From Aequitasia blattaphilus (lineage in GTDB: Bacteria; Bacillota; Clostridia; Lachnospirales; Lachnospiraceae), in the NCBI RefSeq assembly GCF_024721305.1, contig NZ_JAMXOD010000011.1:52513-116512 (forward strand): DNA of 64,000 nt. The letters run 5' to 3'. The notes under the pieces were generated by a model, which had not been told where the DNA came from, did no database searches, and saw only the letters and a program-made list of their open reading frames with translations. Position 1 is the stretch's first letter, and the number at the start of each line of letters is the position of its first letter. The position numbers and the translations under genes are program-made. Positions 6,118 to 20,622 of the stretch are shown one piece after another.

Positions 6118-8178
6118 ATGAAAAGATTAGCGAACAACGCTGTGGCAGTATTTGTAATCATTGCTGTCTTGCTATTGATTATACCTTTGTCGCCCTTTTT
6201 TCTGGACGTCATGATTATTATAAATATTACAATATCGATGGTCGTTCTTCTCGTTAGTATGAACATTAAGGAGCCTTTGGAATTTTCCATTTTTCCATCC
6301 CTGCTCTTGATTACCACACTGTTCCGCATTGGGATTAACATATCATCAACGAAGAACATTTTATCGAATCAAGGCCAGGCAGGTGCAGTGATTAAGTCTT
6401 TTGGTGATTTTATTCTTCAGGGAAATGTTATTGTAGGTTTTGTCGTTTTCATTATTATTGTTTTGGTACAATTTATCGTTATTACAAAAGGTGCAGAACG
6501 TGTTGCAGAGGTTGCAGCCAGATTTACATTGGATGCGATGCCAGGAAAACAAATGGCAATCGATGCAGATTTAAGCGCGGGACTAATTAATGAGGAGGAA
6601 GCCAGAGCACGGCGTATTAAAATTCAAAGAGAAGCCGATTTCTATGGAGCTATGGATGGTGCAACCAAAATTGTTAAGGGCGATGCAGTAATGTCGATTA
6701 TTATTACAGCCGTTAACTTAATTGGTGGATCGATTATCGGTTTGCTGCAGTCAGGAATGGAAATAGGACAGGTTCTGCAGCTTTACTCAATAGCAACGGT
6801 AGGAGACGGACTGGTGTCTCAGATTCCAGCGCTGTTAATATCGACTGCAACAGGCATGATCGTTACCAGAGCAGTAGCAGAGGGAAGCTTAAACACAGAT
6901 GTCACAAAGCAATTTCTGGCACAGCCCAGAGCGTTAATCATGACAGGAGGAGTGCTTCTGGTTCTCTTATTGGTACCGGGAATGCCGAAAGTCCCTTTGG
7001 CAGTTGGAGCAACAGCTCTGATTTTGTTAGGGTACCGACTGAGTAAAAAAATGGAAGAAGAGGTCATTGTTCAAGAAGCAACTTCAAATCGGGCCGTGGA
7101 ACCTTCCGGGGATGTTCCAGAAGAAGAATACTTTAGAGATATTAATAATATCTATTCATTAATAGAGGTAGAGCCCATTGAAATGGAGTTTGGCTACAGC
7201 TTAATTCCTTTGGTGGATGAAACCAGCGGTGGCAAGATGATTGACCGTATTGTTATTTTCAGACGACAATACGCTCAGGAAATGGGATTTGTAATTCCAT
7301 CCGTTCGGTTAAGAGATAGTGTGAATCTTAATACGAATCAATACGTCATTAAAGTACGGGGAGAGGAAGTGGCCAGAGGTGAGATTTTGGTAGATCATTA
7401 CCTGGCGTTAGAACCCACAGAACCAGGAGGAGATATTGATGGAATTGAAACCTTAGAACCAGCCTATGGTATTCCAAGTAAATGGATATTGCCAGAAAAC
7501 AGGGATATGGCTGAGGCCTATGGATTTACAGTAATTGACCCGTTATCTGTTATGGTAACCCATTTATCAGAAACAATTAAGCAGCATGCCTATGAGCTGT
7601 TAAATAGGAAAGAAGTAGTCAACTTATTAGAAAATACGAAGGTGCAGGCACCTGAATTGGTAGATGAGGTTATTCCGGGATTCATCTCCCATGGAAACTT
7701 CCAGAAGGTATTGGTAAGCCTTATAAAAGAGGGGATTCCAATTAAAGACATGGAAACCATTTTAGAAACCATTGCCAATGGAACTGTTCCCGGGGAGGAT
7801 ATTTTAAGCACAGTGGAAAAGATTCGAGGTGCATTAAAGAGAACCATTACAAGGAAATTCTGTGAGGGAGGCCAGCTTCGAGTGGTTACCTTAGACTCGG
7901 AACTAGAAAAAGAGTTGATGTCGAGTCTGGCAAAAAATGAGCAGGGAACATATTTGGCAGTAAAGCCAGATGTGATGCAGCGTCTTTTGAGTCAGTTGGG
8001 AGAAGAGGTTAAAAAATTCCAGGAGTTATCTCAGGAGTCTATTGTACTGACAAGTCAGGTTATACGAGCACATTTGTATCAGCTTTTGGAACAGTTTTAT
8101 CCATCCGTACACGTTTTGGCTTTTAACGAAATTGCCGGAAATGTACAGATTCAAGCGATAGATAATATAACAATGTAA
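6118..8178 (+). CDS. flhA: Flagellar export apparatus protein FlhA
   Basis: Large export-gate protein of 686 aa. The first ~310 residues form about eight membrane helices, and a conserved FHIPEP-family loop (DAMPGKQMAIDADLSAGLI) lies near residues 140-160. The C-terminal cytoplasmic domain docks chaperone-substrate complexes. fliA follows after only 15 bases; the flhF and flhG genes often found here are missing. Confidence 0.97.
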   Translation: MKRLANNAVAVFVIIAVLLLIIPLSPFFLDVMIIINITISMVVLLVSMNIKEPLEFSIFPSLLLITTLFRIGINISSTKNILSNQGQAGAVIKSFGDFILQGNVIVGFVVFIIIVLVQFIVITKGAERVAEVAARFTLDAMPGKQMAIDADLSAGLINEEEARARRIKIQREADFYGAMDGATKIVKGDAVMSIIITAVNLIGGSIIGLLQSGMEIGQVLQLYSIATVGDGLVSQIPALLISTATGMIVTRAVAEGSLNTDVTKQFLAQPRALIMTGGVLLVLLLVPGMPKVPLAVGATALILLGYRLSKKMEEEVIVQEATSNRAVEPSGDVPEEEYFRDINNIYSLIEVEPIEMEFGYSLIPLVDETSGGKMIDRIVIFRRQYAQEMGFVIPSVRLRDSVNLNTNQYVIKVRGEEVARGEILVDHYLALEPTEPGGDIDGIETLEPAYGIPSKWILPENRDMAEAYGFTVIDPLSVMVTHLSETIKQHAYELLNRKEVVNLLENTKVQAPELVDEVIPGFISHGNFQKVLVSLIKEGIPIKDMETILETIANGTVPGEDILSTVEKIRGALKRTITRKFCEGGQLRVVTLDSELEKELMSSLAKNEQGTYLAVKPDVMQRLLSQLGEEVKKFQELSQESIVLTSQVIRAHLYQLLEQFYPSVHVLAFNEIAGNVQIQAIDNITM

Positions 8179-8193: not shown

Positions 8194-8982
8194 ATGTTAG
8201 AGCTTTCAAACGAAGAAGTATTTGCACTGTATCGTCGTACCGGTAATCTGGAACTGAAACAGGATTTGACCATGCGATATCTTTATATCGTACGAAGTAT
8301 TGCAATTCAGATGCGGGATGTTTATGCAGGATTTAGTCAGCTGGAAGATATTATTAATGAGGGTGTTTTGGTATTAATGGGAGCGATTGATCGATATGAC
8401 GATAGCAAGAATGCGAAATTTGAAACTTATTTATCCAGACGAATAAGAGGCATGGTTATTGATTTGGCAAGAAAGCAAGATTGGGTTCCCCGCTCTGTCC
8501 GTAAAAAGCTGCGGGATATTGAGCTTGTGGGAAATGCCTTTTACAGCGAAAATGGACGGATGCCTACGACCCAGGAATTGGCAGAGCTTATGGAGATTGA
8601 GCCAGATAAATTAGTAAGTATTATGGGGAATACAAATTTATCAGCAATTCTTTCATTGGATATGATGATGGAGGAAAAAGAGGAACAACACAGCCGGACT
8701 CAGATTGTTTCAAATAATGCGTCAGAGCAGCCGGAAGAGAGTTTTCTCAAAGGAGAGATGAAAGAAATACTGAAAAGTGGAATCCTTTCCTTAAAGGAGT
8801 CTGAGCAACTTGTTATTTCACTCTACTATGAACAGGAACTTAACATGAAGCAGATTGCTGAAGTGATTGGTGTAAGTGAACCCCGTGTGTCACAAATCCA
8901 TGGAAAAGCAATTGAAAAGCTACAAAAGTATATGGCAGGCACTAAGCAGGTAAGGAGGGAATATGTTTCAGGGGTTTTATAA
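8194..8982 (+). CDS. fliA: RNA polymerase sigma factor FliA/WhiG type (sigma-28)
   Basis: Sigma-28 factor of 262 aa for late flagellar genes. Region 2 (EDIINEGVLVLMGAIDRYD, RRIRGMVIDLARKQDWVPRSVR), region 3 (LRDIELVGN onward) and a region 4 helix-turn-helix (MKQIAEVIGVSEPRVSQIHGKA) are present. Its antagonist FlgM is at 20679. The 3' end overlaps the next gene by 20 bases. Candidate target promoters with GTCGATAA lie ahead of fliD and flgM. Confidence 0.95.
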   Translation: MLELSNEEVFALYRRTGNLELKQDLTMRYLYIVRSIAIQMRDVYAGFSQLEDIINEGVLVLMGAIDRYDDSKNAKFETYLSRRIRGMVIDLARKQDWVPRSVRKKLRDIELVGNAFYSENGRMPTTQELAELMEIEPDKLVSIMGNTNLSAILSLDMMMEEKEEQHSRTQIVSNNASEQPEESFLKGEMKEILKSGILSLKESEQLVISLYYEQELNMKQIAEVIGVSEPRVSQIHGKAIEKLQKYMAGTKQVRREYVSGVL

Positions 8983-11545: not shown

Positions 11546-12493
11546 ATGGAAAAAGCAGAAATTTTATTAGAAACCGGAACCAATGAAATTGAAATAATGG
11601 AATTTACAATTTACGACGAATTATATGGAATTAATGTGGCAAAAGTAAGGGAAATCATGCGGGCAGATAGGGTCAAGGCAATACCTCACGCTCATCCCTC
11701 CATTGAAGGAATCTTCAAGCCCCGAGATGTACTTCTGACCGTAATTGACTTGCCTCATTATTTAACAGGAAGAGAAACCATACAGGATAATCAAGATATT
11801 TTTATGGTAACGGAGTTTAATAAAATTAACATTGCTTTTCGTGTGAATTCTGTGGTGGGTATTGAACGAATCTCATGGGAAGATATTAATAAACCGGATA
11901 CAACCCTTGCAAGTGATGAAGATGGAATTGCAACTGGAATTGCGGAGATTGGAAACAAATTGGTTACCATTCTGGATTTTGAAAAGATTACCGCAGACAT
12001 TGCCCCGGAAACAAGTATACAAAGTGAGAATGTGGAAATATATCATGGAGATGAGCGTCATAAACATCGCTTACTTTTAGCAGAGGATTCGGTGCTGCTT
12101 TCTAAACTAATTGTAGATTCTTTAAAAAAAGCAGGTTATACAAATCTGGTTAAGTTTAATAATGGAAAAGAAGCATATGAATTTTTGGAAGAGAGTAAAG
12201 GCAGTGGAGAAATGCCAGCGGATCTTCTGATTACAGACATTGAAATGCCTAAAATGGATGGGCACCGTTTGACGAAACTTGTGAAAGAAGATCAGTGGCT
12301 TAAAAAGCTCCCAGTCGTAATATTTTCTTCTTTGATTACACCGGAAATGGCAATTAAAGGGAGAGAAGTAGGTGCAGATGAGCAGCTTTCTAAGCCGGAA
12401 ATTGGACATTTAGTAGAAGTTGTTGATGAATTACTGCAGAGGGGACAGACGGATGGAGAGATGTGTTGTACGACGGACAATAAAAGAAGCTGA
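11546..12493 (+). CDS. cheV: Chemotaxis coupling protein CheV
   Basis: CheW-like coupling domain (about residues 10-165) fused to a receiver domain (about 172-305), total 315 aa. Phospho-acceptor Asp231 (ITDIEMPKMDG), the upstream acidic residues in LAEDS and the Lys in LSKPE are present. CheV links receptors to CheA and takes part in adaptation. It heads the CheV/EAL-HDOD/ParA/ComFB group; its last 41 bases overlap the next gene. Confidence 0.94.
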   Translation: MEKAEILLETGTNEIEIMEFTIYDELYGINVAKVREIMRADRVKAIPHAHPSIEGIFKPRDVLLTVIDLPHYLTGRETIQDNQDIFMVTEFNKINIAFRVNSVVGIERISWEDINKPDTTLASDEDGIATGIAEIGNKLVTILDFEKITADIAPETSIQSENVEIYHGDERHKHRLLLAEDSVLLSKLIVDSLKKAGYTNLVKFNNGKEAYEFLEESKGSGEMPADLLITDIEMPKMDGHRLTKLVKEDQWLKKLPVVIFSSLITPEMAIKGREVGADEQLSKPEIGHLVEVVDELLQRGQTDGEMCCTTDNKRS

Positions 12494-13652
12494 GTCAGGA
12501 AGAATCTTTGGTTATGAGATAAATATTGAAGAAGGAAGTAATGAGTCAATTGATTTGATTACCGACTTTATGATGGTTAATAGTAATCGATTTATCAGCG
12601 ATAAAATGACCATTATACCCTTTGAGTCAGAAGAACTTCTAAGGAATACCGTTCATTTGTTTCAGGCTGAGAAAACCATTATATGTCTTGGAAAGGATGT
12701 TCGGGTTACAGTGGCGCTAAAGGAGCTTGTGGAGGAATTAAAAAGGGAAGGATATTTTTTCTCTACCAGTGTAGATTCTTTTGGTAAAGAGCATGTTTCT
12801 CTGGCATTCTATATAGACTATATCGGTGTAGATACAAGTAAGGAAAAGGATTTGCAGCTTATCCGTGATATACACCTTTTAGGGAAAAAGTGTATTGCAG
12901 AAGGAATCGAAAGCAAAGAGCTTTACCGTGCAGCAGTAGATGCCGGCGCGGATTTTCTAGAAGGTGGATTTATTGCAAAAACCTTAGTTAAAAAAGTAGA
13001 TAAATTCAAGTTTTTAAAGGGGAATTTTTTTCAATTTATGATTGAGATACTCAATGAAGAGCCTCGTATATCGGTTTTGGAGAAAATTGTAAAGCGTGAT
13101 GCAGGGATGACGTATGCTCTGCTTCGAATGGCAAATTCCTGCTATTTTGCTTTGCGAAAGCGAACAGAATCCATCCAACAATCCTTAGTCATTATTGGTC
13201 TGAAAAAATTAAAGCAGTGGTCTTATATGATGAGTCTTAGACAAAACATTGATGATCCGGCATCGGAAGAGCTTTTAAAGCTTTCATTTACAAGGGCAAA
13301 GTTTGCTTCTGAGTTAGTGCATTATATGAAAGGATGTTCTGTCACGTCGGGAGATGCATATATGATAGGAATGTTTTCGACAATGGAGTATATGGTTGAC
13401 GGAAATATGGAAGAGATATTAGATGGACTTCCGCTGAATGATGATGTGAAAATTGGTCTGATTGACAAGAAGGATGTCCCAGGAGATATCTATAGACTAA
13501 TTATTAGCTACGAAAGGGCTTACTGGAAACAAAGCAAACAATTGGCAAAGGATCTGGGATTACCAGTCTATTTATTGGCTCAGATTTATATAAATTGTAT
13601 TGAAAGCGTAAATCAAATTTGGGGAGAGCTGATGGTAGAATACAAGCGATAG
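12453..13652 (+). CDS. EAL-HDOD signalling protein with degenerate EAL domain
   Basis: Two domains in 399 aa. The N-terminal EAL-like fold (about 1-190) keeps AEGIES and GADFLEGGFIAK but has lost the catalytic signature: the EAL position reads YEINI and the metal-binding DDFG reads DSFG. The C-terminal HDOD domain (about 195-390) keeps LLRMANS. This is the YuxH/CdgJ architecture, usually a non-enzymatic motility regulator. The ATG at 12453 is chosen because AGAGGGG ends eight bases before it; an in-frame ATG at 12420 is less likely. It probably scaffolds or senses rather than cleaving c-di-GMP. Confidence 0.85.
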   Translation: MERCVVRRTIKEAESGRIFGYEINIEEGSNESIDLITDFMMVNSNRFISDKMTIIPFESEELLRNTVHLFQAEKTIICLGKDVRVTVALKELVEELKREGYFFSTSVDSFGKEHVSLAFYIDYIGVDTSKEKDLQLIRDIHLLGKKCIAEGIESKELYRAAVDAGADFLEGGFIAKTLVKKVDKFKFLKGNFFQFMIEILNEEPRISVLEKIVKRDAGMTYALLRMANSCYFALRKRTESIQQSLVIIGLKKLKQWSYMMSLRQNIDDPASEELLKLSFTRAKFASELVHYMKGCSVTSGDAYMIGMFSTMEYMVDGNMEEILDGLPLNDDVKIGLIDKKDVPGDIYRLIISYERAYWKQSKQLAKDLGLPVYLLAQIYINCIESVNQIWGELMVEYKR

Positions 13653-13664
13653 GAGGTTGTAGAA

Positions 13665-14432
13665 GTGGCAAAAGTAATCGTATTGACAAATCAAAAAGGT
13701 GGTGTTGGGAAGACGACTTCTTCGGCTGCACTGGTTGCGGGATTGCAAAAATGTGGAAACCAGGTTCTGGCGATCGACTTGGACCCACAAGGGAACTTAG
13801 GGTTTAGTCTTGGTGTAAATATTGAAGATGGACACACAATATACGAAGTCTTAAAAGGTGAAATTGCACCGGGAGATGCGATTCGTCATACAGAAGATTA
13901 TGGAGATATTATCACTTCAAATATCCTTCTTAGCGAAGCGGAATTGTTTTTAAAAGGCGAGGATCGTAAGCTGCGGTTAAAGAAAGCATTGGAAACCCTG
14001 AAGCATCGCTACGATTATATTATTATTGATACGCCACCTGCGCTTAATATTTTAACAGTTAATGCATATAGTGCAGCAGATGAACTGATTATACCAATGG
14101 CAGCAGAAATTCTAAGCCTGGTAGGCTTAGTGCAGCTCAAAGAGACAATTCAAGCCGTGAAGGAATCTATAAATCCCCGTTTACATGTATTGGGAATTCT
14201 CATGACAAAGTTTTTCAAATCAACAACTCTTTCCAAGGATGTATTGGATATGGCAAGCTCTGTTGCAGGTCAAATTGGAACGATTGTATTCGAAACAAAA
14301 ATTAGAAACAGTGTAAGGGTTGCAGAGGCACCTGCACACGGGATGAGTATTTTTGACTATTCACCAACTTCAAACCCCGCCCATGATTATCGGGTGTTTG
14401 TGGCTGAGACCGTAGAAAGGATGGGAGCATAA
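13665..14432 (+). CDS. Orphan ParA/Soj-family ATPase
   Basis: ParA-type ATPase of 255 aa with the deviant Walker A motif KGGVGKTT (residues 11-18) and Walker B IIIDTPP near residue 122. No ParB or parS is visible. In polar flagellates, ParA homologues (ParC) place chemotaxis arrays, and FlhG (MinD family) sets flagellar number. This protein is closer to Soj/ParA than to FlhG. Its place between the EAL-HDOD gene and a ComFB gene suggests a role in positioning motility or chemotaxis machinery (inference). Start GTG at 13665, after AGGAGG. Confidence 0.9.
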   Translation: MAKVIVLTNQKGGVGKTTSSAALVAGLQKCGNQVLAIDLDPQGNLGFSLGVNIEDGHTIYEVLKGEIAPGDAIRHTEDYGDIITSNILLSEAELFLKGEDRKLRLKKALETLKHRYDYIIIDTPPALNILTVNAYSAADELIIPMAAEILSLVGLVQLKETIQAVKESINPRLHVLGILMTKFFKSTTLSKDVLDMASSVAGQIGTIVFETKIRNSVRVAEAPAHGMSIFDYSPTSNPAHDYRVFVAETVERMGA

Positions 14433-14433
14433 A

Positions 14434-14961
14434 ATGCCAAAGAAAACAAATAAAACTGATCACGTATTGAACTTATTATCAACAGGAGATGATGGTGGAC
14501 AGACGGAGGAGAGCGTGGTGACAGTAGAAAAAGAAAGTAACCAGGAGGATTTAGCGGAAACCATAAAAAATACGCTGGAGCAGGAAGCAAGTGTGGAAGA
14601 AGCAGAAGTTCCCAAACCGACACCAAAGAAAAGTAAAATCACAGAAAAAGAGTCAGTTCAGGAAAAAGAGCCAAAAGAAAAGCAAGAGGAGTATAAGGTA
14701 ATTAATGTGATGGATATTCTGGTGAGAGAAAAAGTCCGCTATTATATGCAGACGATGGAAATGTGCAATTGTTCACGCTGTACAGTGGACGTTACGGCCT
14801 TAGCTCTTACAAAACTTGGGGCAAAATATGTTGTTGCAAAACAAGAGGAGGTATCTCCCCTGCTAAATTTCTATTCCCGTAAATTTGAAGAAGAAATCAC
14901 AATAGAAGTTATGAAAGCATGTAGTCGGGTTATGGAATCACCTCATCATGTCGATAAATAA
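14434..14961 (+). CDS. ComFB-domain protein with acidic N-terminal extension
   Basis: Protein of 175 aa. The first ~85 residues are charged and low in complexity (Glu/Lys-rich). Residues ~90-170 form a ComFB domain with the hallmark CNCSRC and the following DVTALALTKLGAKYVV. ComFB proteins in cyanobacteria and Bacillus have been reported as cyclic-dinucleotide receptors. It starts 1 base after the parA stop, so the two are surely co-translated. The long tail could be the ParA-contact region (inference). Confidence 0.85.
   Translation: MPKKTNKTDHVLNLLSTGDDGGQTEESVVTVEKESNQEDLAETIKNTLEQEASVEEAEVPKPTPKKSKITEKESVQEKEPKEKQEEYKVINVMDILVREKVRYYMQTMEMCNCSRCTVDVTALALTKLGAKYVVAKQEEVSPLLNFYSRKFEEEITIEVMKACSRVMESPHHVDK
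14931..14957 (+). promoter_or_regulatory. Candidate sigma-28 promoter for fliD
   Basis: TATG (14931-14934), 15 bases, then GTCGATAA (14950-14957), against the sigma-D/sigma-28 consensus TAAA-N15-GCCGATAT. The -10 octamer is identical to the one before flgM. It lies in the end of the ComFB gene, 46 bases before fliD. The -35 is weak. Confidence 0.5.
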
Positions 14962-15002: not shown

Positions 15003-17372
15003 ATGGCGTCAATAGGTGGATTAAGCTCATCAGGTATGGGGAATAGTATTGGAGGCTTTGGAGGTCTTGCCAGTGGTCTTGACCGGGACTCGCTTATCGA
15101 GGGAATGACATATGCAACAAGAGCTAAAATTGCTGCACAACAGGGAAAAAAGCAAACAGTATTGTGGAGACAAGAGGCAGTTAGAAGTATTACCTCAAAA
15201 ATGCATGAATTCACAAATAAATTTATCTCCCTTACGTCTTCCAGCAGCTTACTTTCCGGAAAACTTTTTTCTAGAAATCAAGTAACTGCATTAGGAGCTA
15301 ACAGTAAGTACATTTCAGTTTCTGGCAGCGGTAACTCCAATAGTCTGTTTTCTATTTTAGGAGTGAAGAGTACGTCTAAAAATGCACAGGCCACATCGAA
15401 TGGCGTGATCACGAACCAAACATTAGACACCGGAGAAATTGTAAATGATTTGGGGACAGAAATCGAAAGAGATGTCGTTGCTGGTGATACAATGCACATT
15501 AAATATGATGGAAAAACTTACGCAATCACTTTGCCAAAAGGAGAGGGGTACGATTATTCTACTCCAGAAAATGCAGCAGAGAGTATCAATAAAGCCTTGG
15601 AAAAAATTGAACTTGGAGAAGACAAAACCATGGCAGATGTTTTAAGCGTTTCAGAATCTGGAGGCACATTTACTTTTACGAATAATGATACAGAAGGAAA
15701 GGATTTAGAGCTTGTTGGACACAGTGGAGATCTTCTGAATGACCTGGGCTTTTTAAAAGAAGGGGAGAAGCTCAGTGATTTGGAGGATAGCCGTAAGAAA
15801 ATTACTTCCGAAGGTTTATCTGGAGTAGAGAATGCTGTGTTGACAGAAACAGTCACGGTGGCTTCAGACTTAAGCGGAAAAAGTATCAACTTTACCTATA
15901 ATGGAACAACCAAGGCCATTAAACTTGGAGAATACGATGAGAACTCGACTATTGATGATGTATTGAAAGACTTGCAAAAGGGATTGGATGGTGCTTTTGG
16001 AAAAGGACGTATCCAAGCCGAGAGGAAAGAAAATACGAATGGTGATAAAAGTTCCTTTTCGTTTAAGACCGTATTACCAAGTGGTGAAACAGATTACTCT
16101 TCTGTCTTAAAAATCAGTGGTGGGGATCCAGGGCTTCTGGGGAAAGATGGATATTTTGGAGTAGACCCAGGGACATCGAACCGTCTGAATGTATTTGAAA
16201 GCATTGGTGAATCAGGTCTCTTAAATGGAAATGTTACGGTTCCTCTGACTTTCAGTAATGGCGACAAAACCATTACCCTGGATCCAGAGAAATTCAACGA
16301 AAATACTTCTGTTAGTGCATTAATTGCAGAGCTTAATAGTAATAAAGATTTAGGAATAAATATAAGCTATCAAGAGGGTGCAGATAAGTTTGTAATAAAG
16401 TCCACTGAGCCAGGAGCAAGTGGTGAAATCCAGTTGGGAGGAAACCTGGCGGAAGCACTGTTTGGTCAAGCTGGTTCGGATTACAGTGTTCAAGAAGGAA
16501 CTGATGCAGTGATTCGGGTTCAATATGCAGGAAGTGATGAAGTGGTGGAAATCGTTAGAGGAGAGAATAGTTTTACCTTAGATGGACTCACTGTCAGCCT
16601 AAACGGAACCTTTGGATATGACGATGAGGGAAATCCAATTGAAGGAACGGAGGCAATTACTTTCGAGGCCAAGACAGATACAGAGAGTGCAGCGAAAGCT
16701 GTGAAGGAAATGGTAGATGCATTCAATGAAATTTTAGAATTAATAGCAAAACAATCGAACACGAAACCAAATCGCAGCTACACACCTTTAACAGATGAGC
16801 AGAAGAAGGAAATGTCAGAAACACAAATTGAGCAATGGGAAGAAAAGGCAAAGGAAGGACTTCTTTTTGGAGACAGTGATTTACGTGGGTTAACCAATGA
16901 ATTACGCTTTACAATCCCAATGAATATGCGAGAAACATTTAAGGAAATAGGGATATCCGTTTCAGGAGTGCACTCAGAAAACGGAAAGCTGCTTTTCGAT
17001 GAGGAGAAATTTGCAGAAGCCATGGCAAAAGATCCACAAAAAGTCAGAGCAGCCTTGTCAAACCCTCAGGGAGCAGAAGCAGGCACTGGTTTAATGACAG
17101 GGCTAAAGACTACAATCGATCGGTATGCTTCGATGACAGGAGTGCCGAAAGGAGTTTTAGTTGAACGGGCAGGAAGTACCCATTCACCATTGTCCCTGAC
17201 AAATAACGCCTACCAAAGAGAAATAGAAGCTTTCAATGTCTATATTGACCGATTGAATGAGCGGCTCAAGATGGAGCAAGATCGGTATGTAAGACAGTTT
17301 ACTTCTTTAGAAAGTCTCGTTTCTCAGATGAATTCACAAAGTACCTACTTAAATCAAATGTTTAGCCAATAG
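15003..17372 (+). CDS. fliD: Flagellar filament cap protein FliD
   Basis: Secreted cap protein that folds flagellin at the filament tip. The N-terminal helix region (FGGLASGLDRDSLIEGMTYATR, residues about 18-40) and the C-terminal helix (about 735-789, IDRLNERLKMEQDRYVRQF) are the D0/D1 parts that define FliD. Between them is a long variable region, making 789 aa, longer than the ~470-500 aa of enteric FliD. fliS and a chaperone candidate follow. Confidence 0.95.
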   Translation: MASIGGLSSSGMGNSIGGFGGLASGLDRDSLIEGMTYATRAKIAAQQGKKQTVLWRQEAVRSITSKMHEFTNKFISLTSSSSLLSGKLFSRNQVTALGANSKYISVSGSGNSNSLFSILGVKSTSKNAQATSNGVITNQTLDTGEIVNDLGTEIERDVVAGDTMHIKYDGKTYAITLPKGEGYDYSTPENAAESINKALEKIELGEDKTMADVLSVSESGGTFTFTNNDTEGKDLELVGHSGDLLNDLGFLKEGEKLSDLEDSRKKITSEGLSGVENAVLTETVTVASDLSGKSINFTYNGTTKAIKLGEYDENSTIDDVLKDLQKGLDGAFGKGRIQAERKENTNGDKSSFSFKTVLPSGETDYSSVLKISGGDPGLLGKDGYFGVDPGTSNRLNVFESIGESGLLNGNVTVPLTFSNGDKTITLDPEKFNENTSVSALIAELNSNKDLGINISYQEGADKFVIKSTEPGASGEIQLGGNLAEALFGQAGSDYSVQEGTDAVIRVQYAGSDEVVEIVRGENSFTLDGLTVSLNGTFGYDDEGNPIEGTEAITFEAKTDTESAAKAVKEMVDAFNEILELIAKQSNTKPNRSYTPLTDEQKKEMSETQIEQWEEKAKEGLLFGDSDLRGLTNELRFTIPMNMRETFKEIGISVSGVHSENGKLLFDEEKFAEAMAKDPQKVRAALSNPQGAEAGTGLMTGLKTTIDRYASMTGVPKGVLVERAGSTHSPLSLTNNAYQREIEAFNVYIDRLNERLKMEQDRYVRQFTSLESLVSQMNSQSTYLNQMFSQ

Positions 17373-18767: not shown

Positions 18768-19520
18768 ATGGTAAAAGATGTAATATTTAGAGATGTAACG
18801 AAAACATATGAGGATGGCAGCATAGGGTTAGAGCGGGCATCCTTTGAAATTGAAAAAGGTGAGTTTGTGTTCGTGGTTGGAAAAAGTGGCTCTGGAAAAA
18901 GTACCCTGTTAAAACTTATTAGCACCCAGTTAATGGCATCCTGTGGAGAAATTGAAGTGGGTGGTATTGATTTAGACACGATACCAAAAGGAAAGTTACC
19001 TTACTTCCGTCGTCAGTTTGGAATTATGGAAAGAGAATTGGGATTGGTTACTGATTTGGATGTTACAGCAAATATAAGCTTAGCGATGTTTGCAACAGAG
19101 CAGCCCTTTCGGCTGATAAAGAAAAGAGTAGAGCAAACACTCACTACTTTAGGAATATCCCACTGTGCAAAGATGTATCCAAGACAGCTTTCAGGCGGGG
19201 AAGCGGCTCGAGTACTTCTGGCAAGGGCTTTGGTAATCAATCCTAAAATCTTAATAATTGATGAACCAACGGCCAATTTAGATGAAGATGCTTCCTGGGA
19301 TTTGATGTGCTTACTACGGGATTTGAATCGTATGGGAGTTACAATGATTGTAGCCAGTCATTCTCGAGAATTGGTAACGATTATGCGAAAGCGGGTTATT
19401 ACCTTAGTTTCAGGAAAAATTGTCAAGGATGAAAAGCGAGGAATCTATAACGATAAGGCTATGGATATCTTTGCTGAAAAGAGAGTAGAAAATGAGAGAA
19501 GATATTACGAGAGAGTATGA
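18768..19520 (+). CDS. FtsE-like ABC ATPase with altered Q-loop
   Basis: ABC ATPase of 250 aa, no membrane domain. It has Walker A GKSGSGKST (38-46), signature LSGGEAARV (141-149), Walker B ILIIDEP with Glu166, and switch His198. The N-terminal part resembles FtsE, but the Q-loop Gln of FtsE (GVVFQDF) is Arg89 here (GIMEREL), and the signature has Ala-Ala where Gln-Gln is usual. No FtsX partner is adjacent. Its 3' end overlaps the next gene by 29 bases. A divergence from the cell-division FtsE role is likely. Confidence 0.85.
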   Translation: MVKDVIFRDVTKTYEDGSIGLERASFEIEKGEFVFVVGKSGSGKSTLLKLISTQLMASCGEIEVGGIDLDTIPKGKLPYFRRQFGIMERELGLVTDLDVTANISLAMFATEQPFRLIKKRVEQTLTTLGISHCAKMYPRQLSGGEAARVLLARALVINPKILIIDEPTANLDEDASWDLMCLLRDLNRMGVTMIVASHSRELVTIMRKRVITLVSGKIVKDEKRGIYNDKAMDIFAEKRVENERRYYERV

Positions 19521-20622
19521 GGCGGATTGTTTAATAAAATTGTTGGAAGCACTTGTGAATAAGCAGGAGATTCCAAGATTTGAGAGAGTGCCGGATTGGG
19601 AGAAATTATACAAGCTGGCACTTTTTCAAAATGTGACAAATATAGCGTATTACTGTCTTTTAGGTGTGGACGATTACGAGTTGAAGCCCTGGAAGGAAAA
19701 GTTTGAAGAGCATTATCATCAGGCCGTTGTCAATGAAGGGTACTATGGAGCAGTTGTACCAGAAATTTTAGAGGAGCTTGAAAAAGGGAGCATCAATGGC
19801 GTTCTGTTTGGGGAATATATTTTACGGGGATTTTATCCGAGAGTTGAGATGCGGGAGCTTGAAAGTGTACAGATACTGGTTGGAAAAGACCAAGTAGATA
19901 AGATTCGTAAAATAATGGAAAGGCTTGATTTTACAGAGGAGAAAAGCAATAAAAAAGGAGCTTATGTTTTTACAAAAATACCGGGATTGAAAGTGATTTT
20001 TTGGACGAAGCTTCATTTTCTGAATAAGAAGTTTACAAAGTACTTTGATATTTCCCTAAAGACATATGAACCTTTTGCTTCCTATCGATGCATACGTGGA
20101 TTTCAACCGGAGGAATTGTACATCTATTTAATCGCCTCAGCAGCAGAGGATTATGCAAAAAGTGAATTAGATATGTTGAAAATTTTAGATTTGCGTTGTT
20201 TTTATCGTGCCTATGTACGAGTATTGGATTGGAAATATGTGACGAAAGAGCTGGATGCTTTAAAGGCAGGAGAGTTTGCAGACTATATTACCAAATTAGC
20301 CACTATGTGGTATGATGGTTTGATTTTTGAGAAGGATAATATACTTTTGACAGCTATGGAAGTACATATTTTAACCAAGGGGAGAAAGGGACGTCACGAG
20401 AGTGAACGGTTATTAAGTCTGGTCAATGAGGTGGCGGATATATACAGCCGAGACTTGAAAAAACAACAACGCAAGGCGGCAAGAGAATTGCTGTTGCCCT
20501 CTCTGGAATATATGCGTGTTATGTTCAAAGTACTACAGAGATATCCGTGTTTTCTCCCATTGTGTTGGGTGGTGCGTCTTTTGCGATTAGGAAGAGATAA
20601 AATCTTTCATAAAAAGGCTTAA
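19492..20622 (+). CDS. Nucleotidyltransferase-fold protein (NTP_transf_5-like), probably inactive
   Basis: Protein of 376 aa resembling the uncharacterised nucleotidyltransferase family NTP_transf_5. The segment ILRGFYPRVEMRELESVQILV (residues 110-130) aligns with the family's Y-P...R...DIDLLV. The two catalytic Asp positions are Ser125 and Gln127. A basic C-terminus with a hydrophobic stretch (about 345-365) may contact the membrane. Coupled by overlap to the FtsE-like gene. The family call is moderate; function unknown. Confidence 0.6.
   Translation: MREDITREYEADCLIKLLEALVNKQEIPRFERVPDWEKLYKLALFQNVTNIAYYCLLGVDDYELKPWKEKFEEHYHQAVVNEGYYGAVVPEILEELEKGSINGVLFGEYILRGFYPRVEMRELESVQILVGKDQVDKIRKIMERLDFTEEKSNKKGAYVFTKIPGLKVIFWTKLHFLNKKFTKYFDISLKTYEPFASYRCIRGFQPEELYIYLIASAAEDYAKSELDMLKILDLRCFYRAYVRVLDWKYVTKELDALKAGEFADYITKLATMWYDGLIFEKDNILLTAMEVHILTKGRKGRHESERLLSLVNEVADIYSRDLKKQQRKAARELLLPSLEYMRVMFKVLQRYPCFLPLCWVVRLLRLGRDKIFHKKA

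Follow-up and report, generated by a model that had tools for sequence, protein, structure and literature searches.

Whether flagella are placed in a regulated or a random manner in enteric gammaproteobacteria that lack FlhF and FlhG has been posed as a question (PMC12826062). We consider a locus of Aequitasia blattaphilus, which lies in a 64,000-nt stretch of assembly GCF_024721305.1 (contig NZ_JAMXOD010000011.1, positions 52,513-116,512, forward strand), referred to as the window in the following. Here a flagellar operon contains the gene of an orphan ParA-type ATPase, followed by the gene of a ComFB-domain protein, which an original prediction made from the sequence had joined with the preceding genes for CheV and an EAL-HDOD protein into one module. 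Orphan ParAs are known to serve chemotaxis clusters, McdA carboxysomes and FlhG flagella (PMC9178275, PMC10241942). Our best reading of the window, with a probability of about one half, is that ParA and the ComFB protein constitute the dedicated ATPase/partner pair of an FlhF-less flagellum, in which the partner carries a domain of a cyclic-dinucleotide-receptor family. The core features are:

13665-14432, + strand: orphan Soj-type ParA ATPase, core of the module (255 aa, GTG start; AAA_31 1.5e-51; Walker A KGGVGKT).
14434-14961, + strand: ComFB-domain protein, predicted ParA partner or adaptor, core of the module (175 aa; PF10719 1.6e-15).
14434-14481, + strand: N-terminal peptide MPKKTNKTDHVLNLLS, predicted to stimulate ParA, from its conservation in proteins accompanied by ParA.
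14515-14598, + strand: internal conserved stretch, residues 28-55 of the ComFB protein (V-x-V-V-D...I...L), from the alignment.
14701-14943, + strand: ComFB domain, residues 90-170 (PF10719), with predicted zinc ligands C111, C113 and C116, plus H172 just outside.

It is strongly supported that ParA and ComFB form a conserved pair in the flagellar loci of two families of the order. In the first family 46 of 299 genomes gave a PF10719 match, and by locus they comprise 25 with a flagellar ComFB, three with a receiver-ComFB fusion and 18 with a short ComFB only. The 25 flagellar cases divide into 22 of the window type (group 1; three of them without ParA) and three of a second type situated beside flgM/flgN-flgK (group 2; L059-L061). 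Of the 57 group-1 loci fetched from all sources, 51 have ParA, as do the three group-2 loci. In all 49 loci where both genes were visible they shared the same strand, and their spacing, measured with uncurated start codons, ranged between 32 bases of overlap and a gap of 253 bases. The linkage, whose absence from related genomes had been named as a refutation of the original prediction, was thus recovered by the neighbourhood search. A second family of the order served as replication set (58 genomes, 26 with ComFB; 25 loci fetched plus G454), and ParA adjoins ComFB in 21 of its 24 evaluable loci. The pair was further seen beside fliD in G536 (same family, outside the sample) and in G413 (another family of the class). 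Named organisms with a related locus include [Clostridium] symbiosum, [Clostridium] clostridioforme and Enterocloster bolteae.

Outside of flagellar loci the pair was not encountered at the ComFB loci examined. No ParA-family open reading frame occurred near short ComFB genes (0 of 50 loci, 20 with flanks of up to ~9 kb and 30 with 1.5 kb). A class-level search of 391 genomes returned four long flagellar ComFB cases, the window included, while the long frame of G378 (L130) showed none of the flagellar or ParA matches. In other classes, five ComFB loci with long frames likewise gave no ParA or flagellar gene match, except for one CheY-like match, and a spread of the ParA-ComFB pair throughout Bacillota was not seen among the listed matches of a phylum-level search.

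The window operon runs in the order flhA, a sigma-70-family sigma factor gene, two flgG-like genes, cheC, cheD, cheV, EAL-HDOD, parA, the comFB-like gene and fliD, and the following members bear on the extent of the module:

6118-8178, + strand: flhA, same operon (FHIPEP 5.4e-248).
8194-8982, + strand: sigma-70-family sigma factor gene, SigD-type by context (Sigma70_r2, r3 and r4 matches).
11546-12493, + strand: CheV, CheW domain plus receiver domain, flagellar/chemotaxis context.
12453-13652, + strand: EAL-HDOD protein with degenerate EAL, best start ATG at 12453, an optional neighbour outside the module.
15003-17372, + strand: fliD (FliD_C 1.8e-36, FliD_N 6.9e-8), the most frequent neighbour of the pair.

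The four genes from cheV to the ComFB gene are consecutive and closely spaced, as had been claimed: all lie on the + strand, cheV and the EAL-HDOD gene overlap by 41 bp, and gaps of 12 bp and 1 bp follow. The degeneracy ascribed to the EAL domain is likewise borne out, since next to a clear HDOD match (7.7e-16) the EAL match is confined to profile positions 195-235 of 236 and scores 25.4 bits, below the Pfam cut-off of 31.3. The four-gene module itself, by contrast, did not survive comparison. The EAL-HDOD gene is present in only 26 of the 41 other loci where cheV is visible (missing from 15), three of the 26 being without ParA, and it is consequently optional; the pair also occurs without cheV in the DNA fetched, at flgM/flgN-flgK in group 2 and at fliD in G413. 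The true unit is the pair of ParA and ComFB protein, and CheV represents its flagellar context.

These neighbourhoods also bear on the main alternative, that the pair positions chemoreceptor arrays instead of flagella, as ParC/ParP do in Vibrio and PpfA/TlpT in Rhodobacter, where ParP integrates into the array by a CheW-like domain. The window does carry cheC, cheD and cheV upstream of the pair, EAL-HDOD (23 of 49) or cheV (13 of 49) can flank the pair on one side as the nearest recognised gene, and orphan ParAs are known from chemotaxis operons (PMC9178275). However, fliD holds that neighbouring position in 44 of 49 loci, the cheV-free surroundings of the group-2 and G413 pairs in the fetched DNA speak against a role in arrays, and Pfam detected only the ComFB domain in the partner, with no CheW-like or receptor domain. 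We consider arrays as cargo unlikely.

Two further observations concern the surroundings of the pair. A choline-binding or cell-wall-binding repeat protein (Pfam) is encoded between cheV and the pair in L005 (6200-7153; [Clostridium] clostridioforme), L007 (8425-9519), L057 (10674-11612) and L058 (6871-7926, a match only under the cut-off). Within the flagellar operon of the window, positions 18768-20622 comprise an ABC ATPase gene and an NTP_transf_5 nucleotidyltransferase gene (Pfam), which recur near fliS in many relatives.

The N-terminal peptide is better conserved than the folded domain of the same protein. Residues K7, T8, V11 and L14 do not vary among the 27 aligned proteins accompanied by ParA (near-copies L003 and L006 dropped), H10 is found in 93% and N6 in 89%. 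Across 23 proteins the mean pairwise identity amounts to 0.69 for the peptide, 0.48 for the ComFB domain, 0.34 for the middle stretch and 0.16 and 0.19 for the linkers. Besides the window, 57 group-1 loci were evaluable, and the peptide was found in 51 of 51 with ParA and in none of the six without. Ten of the 57 (L002-L011) originate from a search whose seeds included MPKKTNKT and are therefore biased toward the peptide; without them the counts are 41 of 41 and 0 of 6, and without the five proteins from that search the identities become 0.70, 0.48, 0.35, 0.17 and 0.19. The motif expression was widened after variants in L011 and L209 had appeared, and a stricter expression matches 49 of 51. 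L010 and L011 were counted as peptide-positive although the contig end cuts their ComFB domain, whereas L068 (same contig as L007), L215 (contig ends before the N-terminus), the receiver-ComFB fusions (L062, L063, L066) and L130 were left out before counting, and the peptide table omits group 2 (L059-L061).

The six ParA-less loci represent three lineages, namely G162, the pair G267 and G293 (sister rows in the FlhA tree), and G1024, G1026 and G1027 of genus g735 in the second family, a genus in which G1023 and G1025 retain both ParA and peptide. In the ParA-less genes of g735 the ComFB part remains 68-80% identical to ParA-accompanied relatives, while the first 16 residues show only 3-6 matches. 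L217 has a deletion in the peptide region. In L219 and L224, whose ComFB part is 68-79% identical, the start codon is intact and the distance to the middle stretch is unchanged, while the peptide residues have been replaced (4-6 of 16 match the ParA-accompanied relatives, which agree with each other at 14 of 16). Judged from these sequences, the peptide has decayed in place in two of the three related g735 genes, and since start and length persist there while the residues do not, the peptide seems to be constrained only in the presence of ParA. A relocated ParA is ruled out for G162, G267, G293 and G149, the genomes searched (G1024, G1026 and G1027 were not), as their best matches are at Soj level (167-174 bits), compared to 286 and 301 bits for true module ParAs in G111 and G050. 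Nor was the peptide overlooked by a wrong start: a six-frame scan of L043, L052 and L055 gave no motif, and L217, L219 and L224 were read from the open-frame start.

The same loci allow us to judge whether the linkage is merely that of passengers in a conserved flagellar locus, without functional coupling, with peptide and ParA lost jointly by single deletions. Because the peptide codons adjoin parA at its 3' end, both could vanish in one deletion; most loci share ancestry, and L217 shows that deletions happen in the region. Single deletions are, however, insufficient for L219 and L224, and the pair keeps its own order and strand while its orientation relative to fliD changes (opposite in 37 of 44 loci, same strand in 7 of 44, the window being of the latter type). 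This explanation strikes us as very improbable.

Partners of ParA/MinD ATPases act via a short basic N-terminal extension (PMC7993993), and the first 20 residues of McdB are necessary and sufficient for binding McdA (PMC12204374). The original prediction had proposed a charged 85-residue tail of the ComFB protein as ParA partner. The N-terminal region, a charged segment of 89 residues preceding the ComFB domain, does remain the likely site, but the predicted contact narrows to the first ~16 basic/amphipathic residues rather than the whole tail.

The ATPase is a Soj-like ParA. It possesses the deviant Walker A KGGVGKT within its AAA_31 match, and its closest solved chains are ParA/Soj. A tree built from module ParAs of both types, five own-genome ParAs and three FlhG proteins unites all module ParAs regardless of type (support 0.99). 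Their neighbours in this tree are the genome's own Soj and two more of its ParAs, and FlhG is distant. The closest other ParA of the genome (C10, locus L089; 176.5 bits) has ParB downstream (Pfam), whereas the proteins adjoining the window ParA (ComFB, EAL-HDOD) include no ParB family match, which agrees with its earlier description as an orphan. Basic residues are retained at ParA positions 182 (34 of 34 sequences), 191 (31 of 34) and 214 (33 of 34), and nucleoid binding by the module ParA is likely. A displaced FlhG is ruled out: the window ParA scores 24-27 bits to three FlhG proteins, as opposed to 246-406 bits to other group-1 module ParAs, and it starts at the Walker A strand, without the N-terminal motif DQAxxLR of FlhG (PMC12826062), while FlhG of L136 and L145 starts MDQAEQLR.

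Kinship with FlhG would matter if the pair had no spatial task and were an FlhG-like switch of flagellar gene expression or number, operating for instance via FlgM and the sigma factor. Such a role would suit the sigma factor gene in the window operon and the group-2 pairs adjoining flgM, and FlhG itself controls both number and expression (PMC12826062). Yet the scores, the missing motif and the Soj-like affinity all separate the ParA from FlhG, and the architecture of the partner seems closer to that of cargo adaptors. We regard a switch of this kind as quite unlikely.

The flagellum that the pair accompanies is devoid of FlhF in the genomes tested. Absence of flhF and flhG had been noted for the locus, and for FlhF it extends to the whole A. 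blattaphilus assembly (60 contigs, 97.5% complete), where the best TIGR03499 match reaches 81.6 bits at a cut-off of 174. The search for FlhG covered this genome alone among those with a flagellar ComFB, and none of its eight AAA_31 matches, the window ParA among them, shows DQAxxLR in the protein portion read; an FlhG would have been caught, because two true FlhG proteins match AAA_31. In the family FlhA is present in 155 of 299 genomes and FlhF in 125 above the cut-off, with the partial, below-cut-off matches of G103 and G251 counted as present. FlhF thus occurs in 0 of 25 flagellar-ComFB genomes (22 with ParA) versus 127 of 130 other FlhA-positive genomes, the exceptions being G174 (76% complete, weak FlhA match), G199 (70% complete, FlhA in the FlhF clade) and G149. 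It is also absent from G413, G454 and G536. Where FlhF-positive relatives carry flhF/flhG, directly 3' of flhA, the window has the sigma factor gene. In an FlhA tree (52 rows, part of the 155) a single long, fully supported branch separates two types. Within the family there are accordingly two flagellar systems of ancient divergence: one has FlhF and FlhG (the latter read in L136 and L145 by the MDQAEQLR start), the other ComFB, mostly together with ParA. This suggests that the set of flagellar genes was either exchanged as a whole or lost differentially.

The partner is a genuine ComFB protein by profile (57.3 bits to PF10719 against a curated cut-off of 25, residues 90-170), and A. blattaphilus possesses no other ComFB gene. 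C111, C113, C116 and H172 are invariant in 29 aligned proteins, as they are among the 27 accompanied by ParA, and follow the CxCxxC plus C-terminal Cys/His arrangement of the Cys3-His/Cys zinc site described for the family (PMC4381287). A profile of the module alignment matches B. subtilis ComFB (4wai, 1.1e-9) and a c-di-GMP receptor (8hja, 7.7e-4). The window protein lacks comFA/comFC neighbours and is surrounded by ParA, EAL-HDOD, CheV and FliD. Synechocystis ComFB binds c-di-AMP (Kd 2.6 uM) and c-di-GMP (PMC12313861), and c-di-GMP is also bound by CdgR, the homologue from Nostoc (PMC12313861, PMC13075795); by analogy, the window ComFB may bind a cyclic dinucleotide as well. GGDEF proteins are encoded in 29 of 29 genomes searched (the 25 flagellar-ComFB genomes plus G149, G454, G536 and G413), and A. 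blattaphilus has 19 GGDEF matches and one DAC match.

Two arrangements of signalling domains were met on the way. In G050 a convergent GGDEF plus HD-domain gene (L042 4893-6557; Pfam) lies directly downstream of the pair, the sole case within the first set of loci scanned by motif search. Receiver-ComFB fusions of 220-222 aa (Pfam) are encoded in G080, G188 and G286 (L062 8464-9132, L063 8898-9560, L066 9159-9827), with no flagellar gene match alongside; judged by their domains, they could join a phosphorelay to a possible cyclic-dinucleotide receptor.

The binding properties of the family also admit another reading, in which the ComFB protein acts mainly on motility in response to a ligand, as a brake or clutch of the motor, and ParA does no more than load, disperse or sequester it. 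Cyclic-dinucleotide binding in ComFB relatives (PMC12313861, PMC13075795) would fit this, and so would the ComFB domain and internal stretch that endure in the loci without ParA. It is at odds with the peptide being the best conserved segment wherever ParA is present, by which coupling to ParA would be central in most lineages, and we think it distinctly unlikely.

Partner proteins such as ParB, McdB and PomX stimulate their ParA-type ATPases. If the ParA-ComFB pair works as we propose, the basic N-terminal peptide would dock on the ATP-bound ParA dimer and stimulate ATP hydrolysis, with a ComFB dimer displaying two such peptides on long variable linkers. The dimeric, zinc-holding ComFB domain and the internal stretch would attach to the cargo; the stretch, which outlasts ParA in L043, L052 and L055, is a possible site of cargo binding or oligomerisation. 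Flagellar basal bodies are the probable cargo, because the loci are flagellar, fliD is the commonest neighbour and FlhF is absent. Cycles of nucleoid binding and release, i.e. a ParA gradient, would then space flagella or limit their number, and the ligand state might gate cargo attachment or ParA stimulation, a step proposed from the binding of c-di-GMP and c-di-AMP by members of the ComFB family in cyanobacteria. The fullest version, in which the partner is itself a cyclic-dinucleotide receptor and the level of a second messenger directly sets the spacing or counting of flagella by a nucleoid ratchet in this FlhF-less lineage, we put forward tentatively and hold to be doubtful.

Several points weigh against this proposal. 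ComFB persists without ParA in six of 57 loci, which indicates that it also has a ParA-independent role, and its main job may not be linked to ParA. Three ParA-less ComFB genomes are also without FlhF, so that the flagellum can dispense with both, and G149, with a group-2-like FlhA (L131/L132), has neither FlhF nor ComFB nor a module-type ParA. Group 2 (L059-L061) possesses ParA next to a ComFB with a different, conserved N-terminal peptide. The mutual exclusion of FlhF and ComFB reflects one ancient split rather than 25 independent events; the FlhA tree rules out as many separate replacements of FlhF, and the Fisher value of 7e-26 is for that reason not a count of independent events. In the second family the exclusion is documented by a single genome, G454. 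The equivalents of R189 and R218, which we take to be the DNA-binding arginines of Soj, are not retained together (S and R in the window ParA, R and A/S in most relatives), for which reason nucleoid binding is no more than likely. Finally, ligand binding is transferred to the module from cyanobacterial family members only.

Compared to known systems, the pair resembles McdA/McdB and PomZ/PomX/PomY in its Soj/MinD-type ATPase, the basic N-terminal ~20 residues of known partners serving for binding or stimulation there; it differs by a partner that ends in a ComFB domain and by its flagellar gene context, and stimulation is here a prediction from sequence. With FlhF/FlhG it would share the broad role and has an ATPase of the ParA/MinD superfamily, and FlhF and flagellar ComFB never occur together in the 299-genome sample, but it lacks FlhF, its ParA is Soj-like without DQAxxLR and its partner is unrelated to FlhF. 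ParC/ParP and PpfA/TlpT are likewise orphan ParAs in motility or chemotaxis loci, with partners of another make, and the window pair most commonly neighbours fliD. ParABS (Soj/Spo0J) combines a ParA with a partner of basic N-terminus as well, though in A. blattaphilus the Soj next to ParB is a separate protein. B. subtilis ComFB and cyanobacterial CdgR/ComFB share the domain and its zinc site, whereas the window protein adds N-terminal peptide and linker and sits with ParA in a flagellar rather than a comFA/comFC operon. To our knowledge no other ParA partner is built on a second-messenger-receptor domain, although no general search of the ParA/c-di-GMP literature was made and BcsQ has a link to c-di-GMP. 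BcsQ, an orphan ParA-family ATPase reported to be activated by c-di-GMP signalling (PMC9178275), acts in cellulose synthesis and has no ComFB partner. Titles and abstract openings yielded no link of ComFB to ParA or flagella and, for orphan ParAs with flagella and chemotaxis, no paper on such a pair; no literature on Lachnospiraceae flagella with FlhF/FlhG was found either, in searches beyond whose scope lay most subscription papers and bioRxiv.

The ParA-ComFB pair thus offers, in a lineage other than the enteric gammaproteobacteria, a concrete and recurrent candidate for flagellar placement without FlhF, with K7, T8, V11 and L14 as named residues. If the reading is true, the positioning of structures within the cell would be coupled by a new route to c-di-GMP or c-di-AMP.

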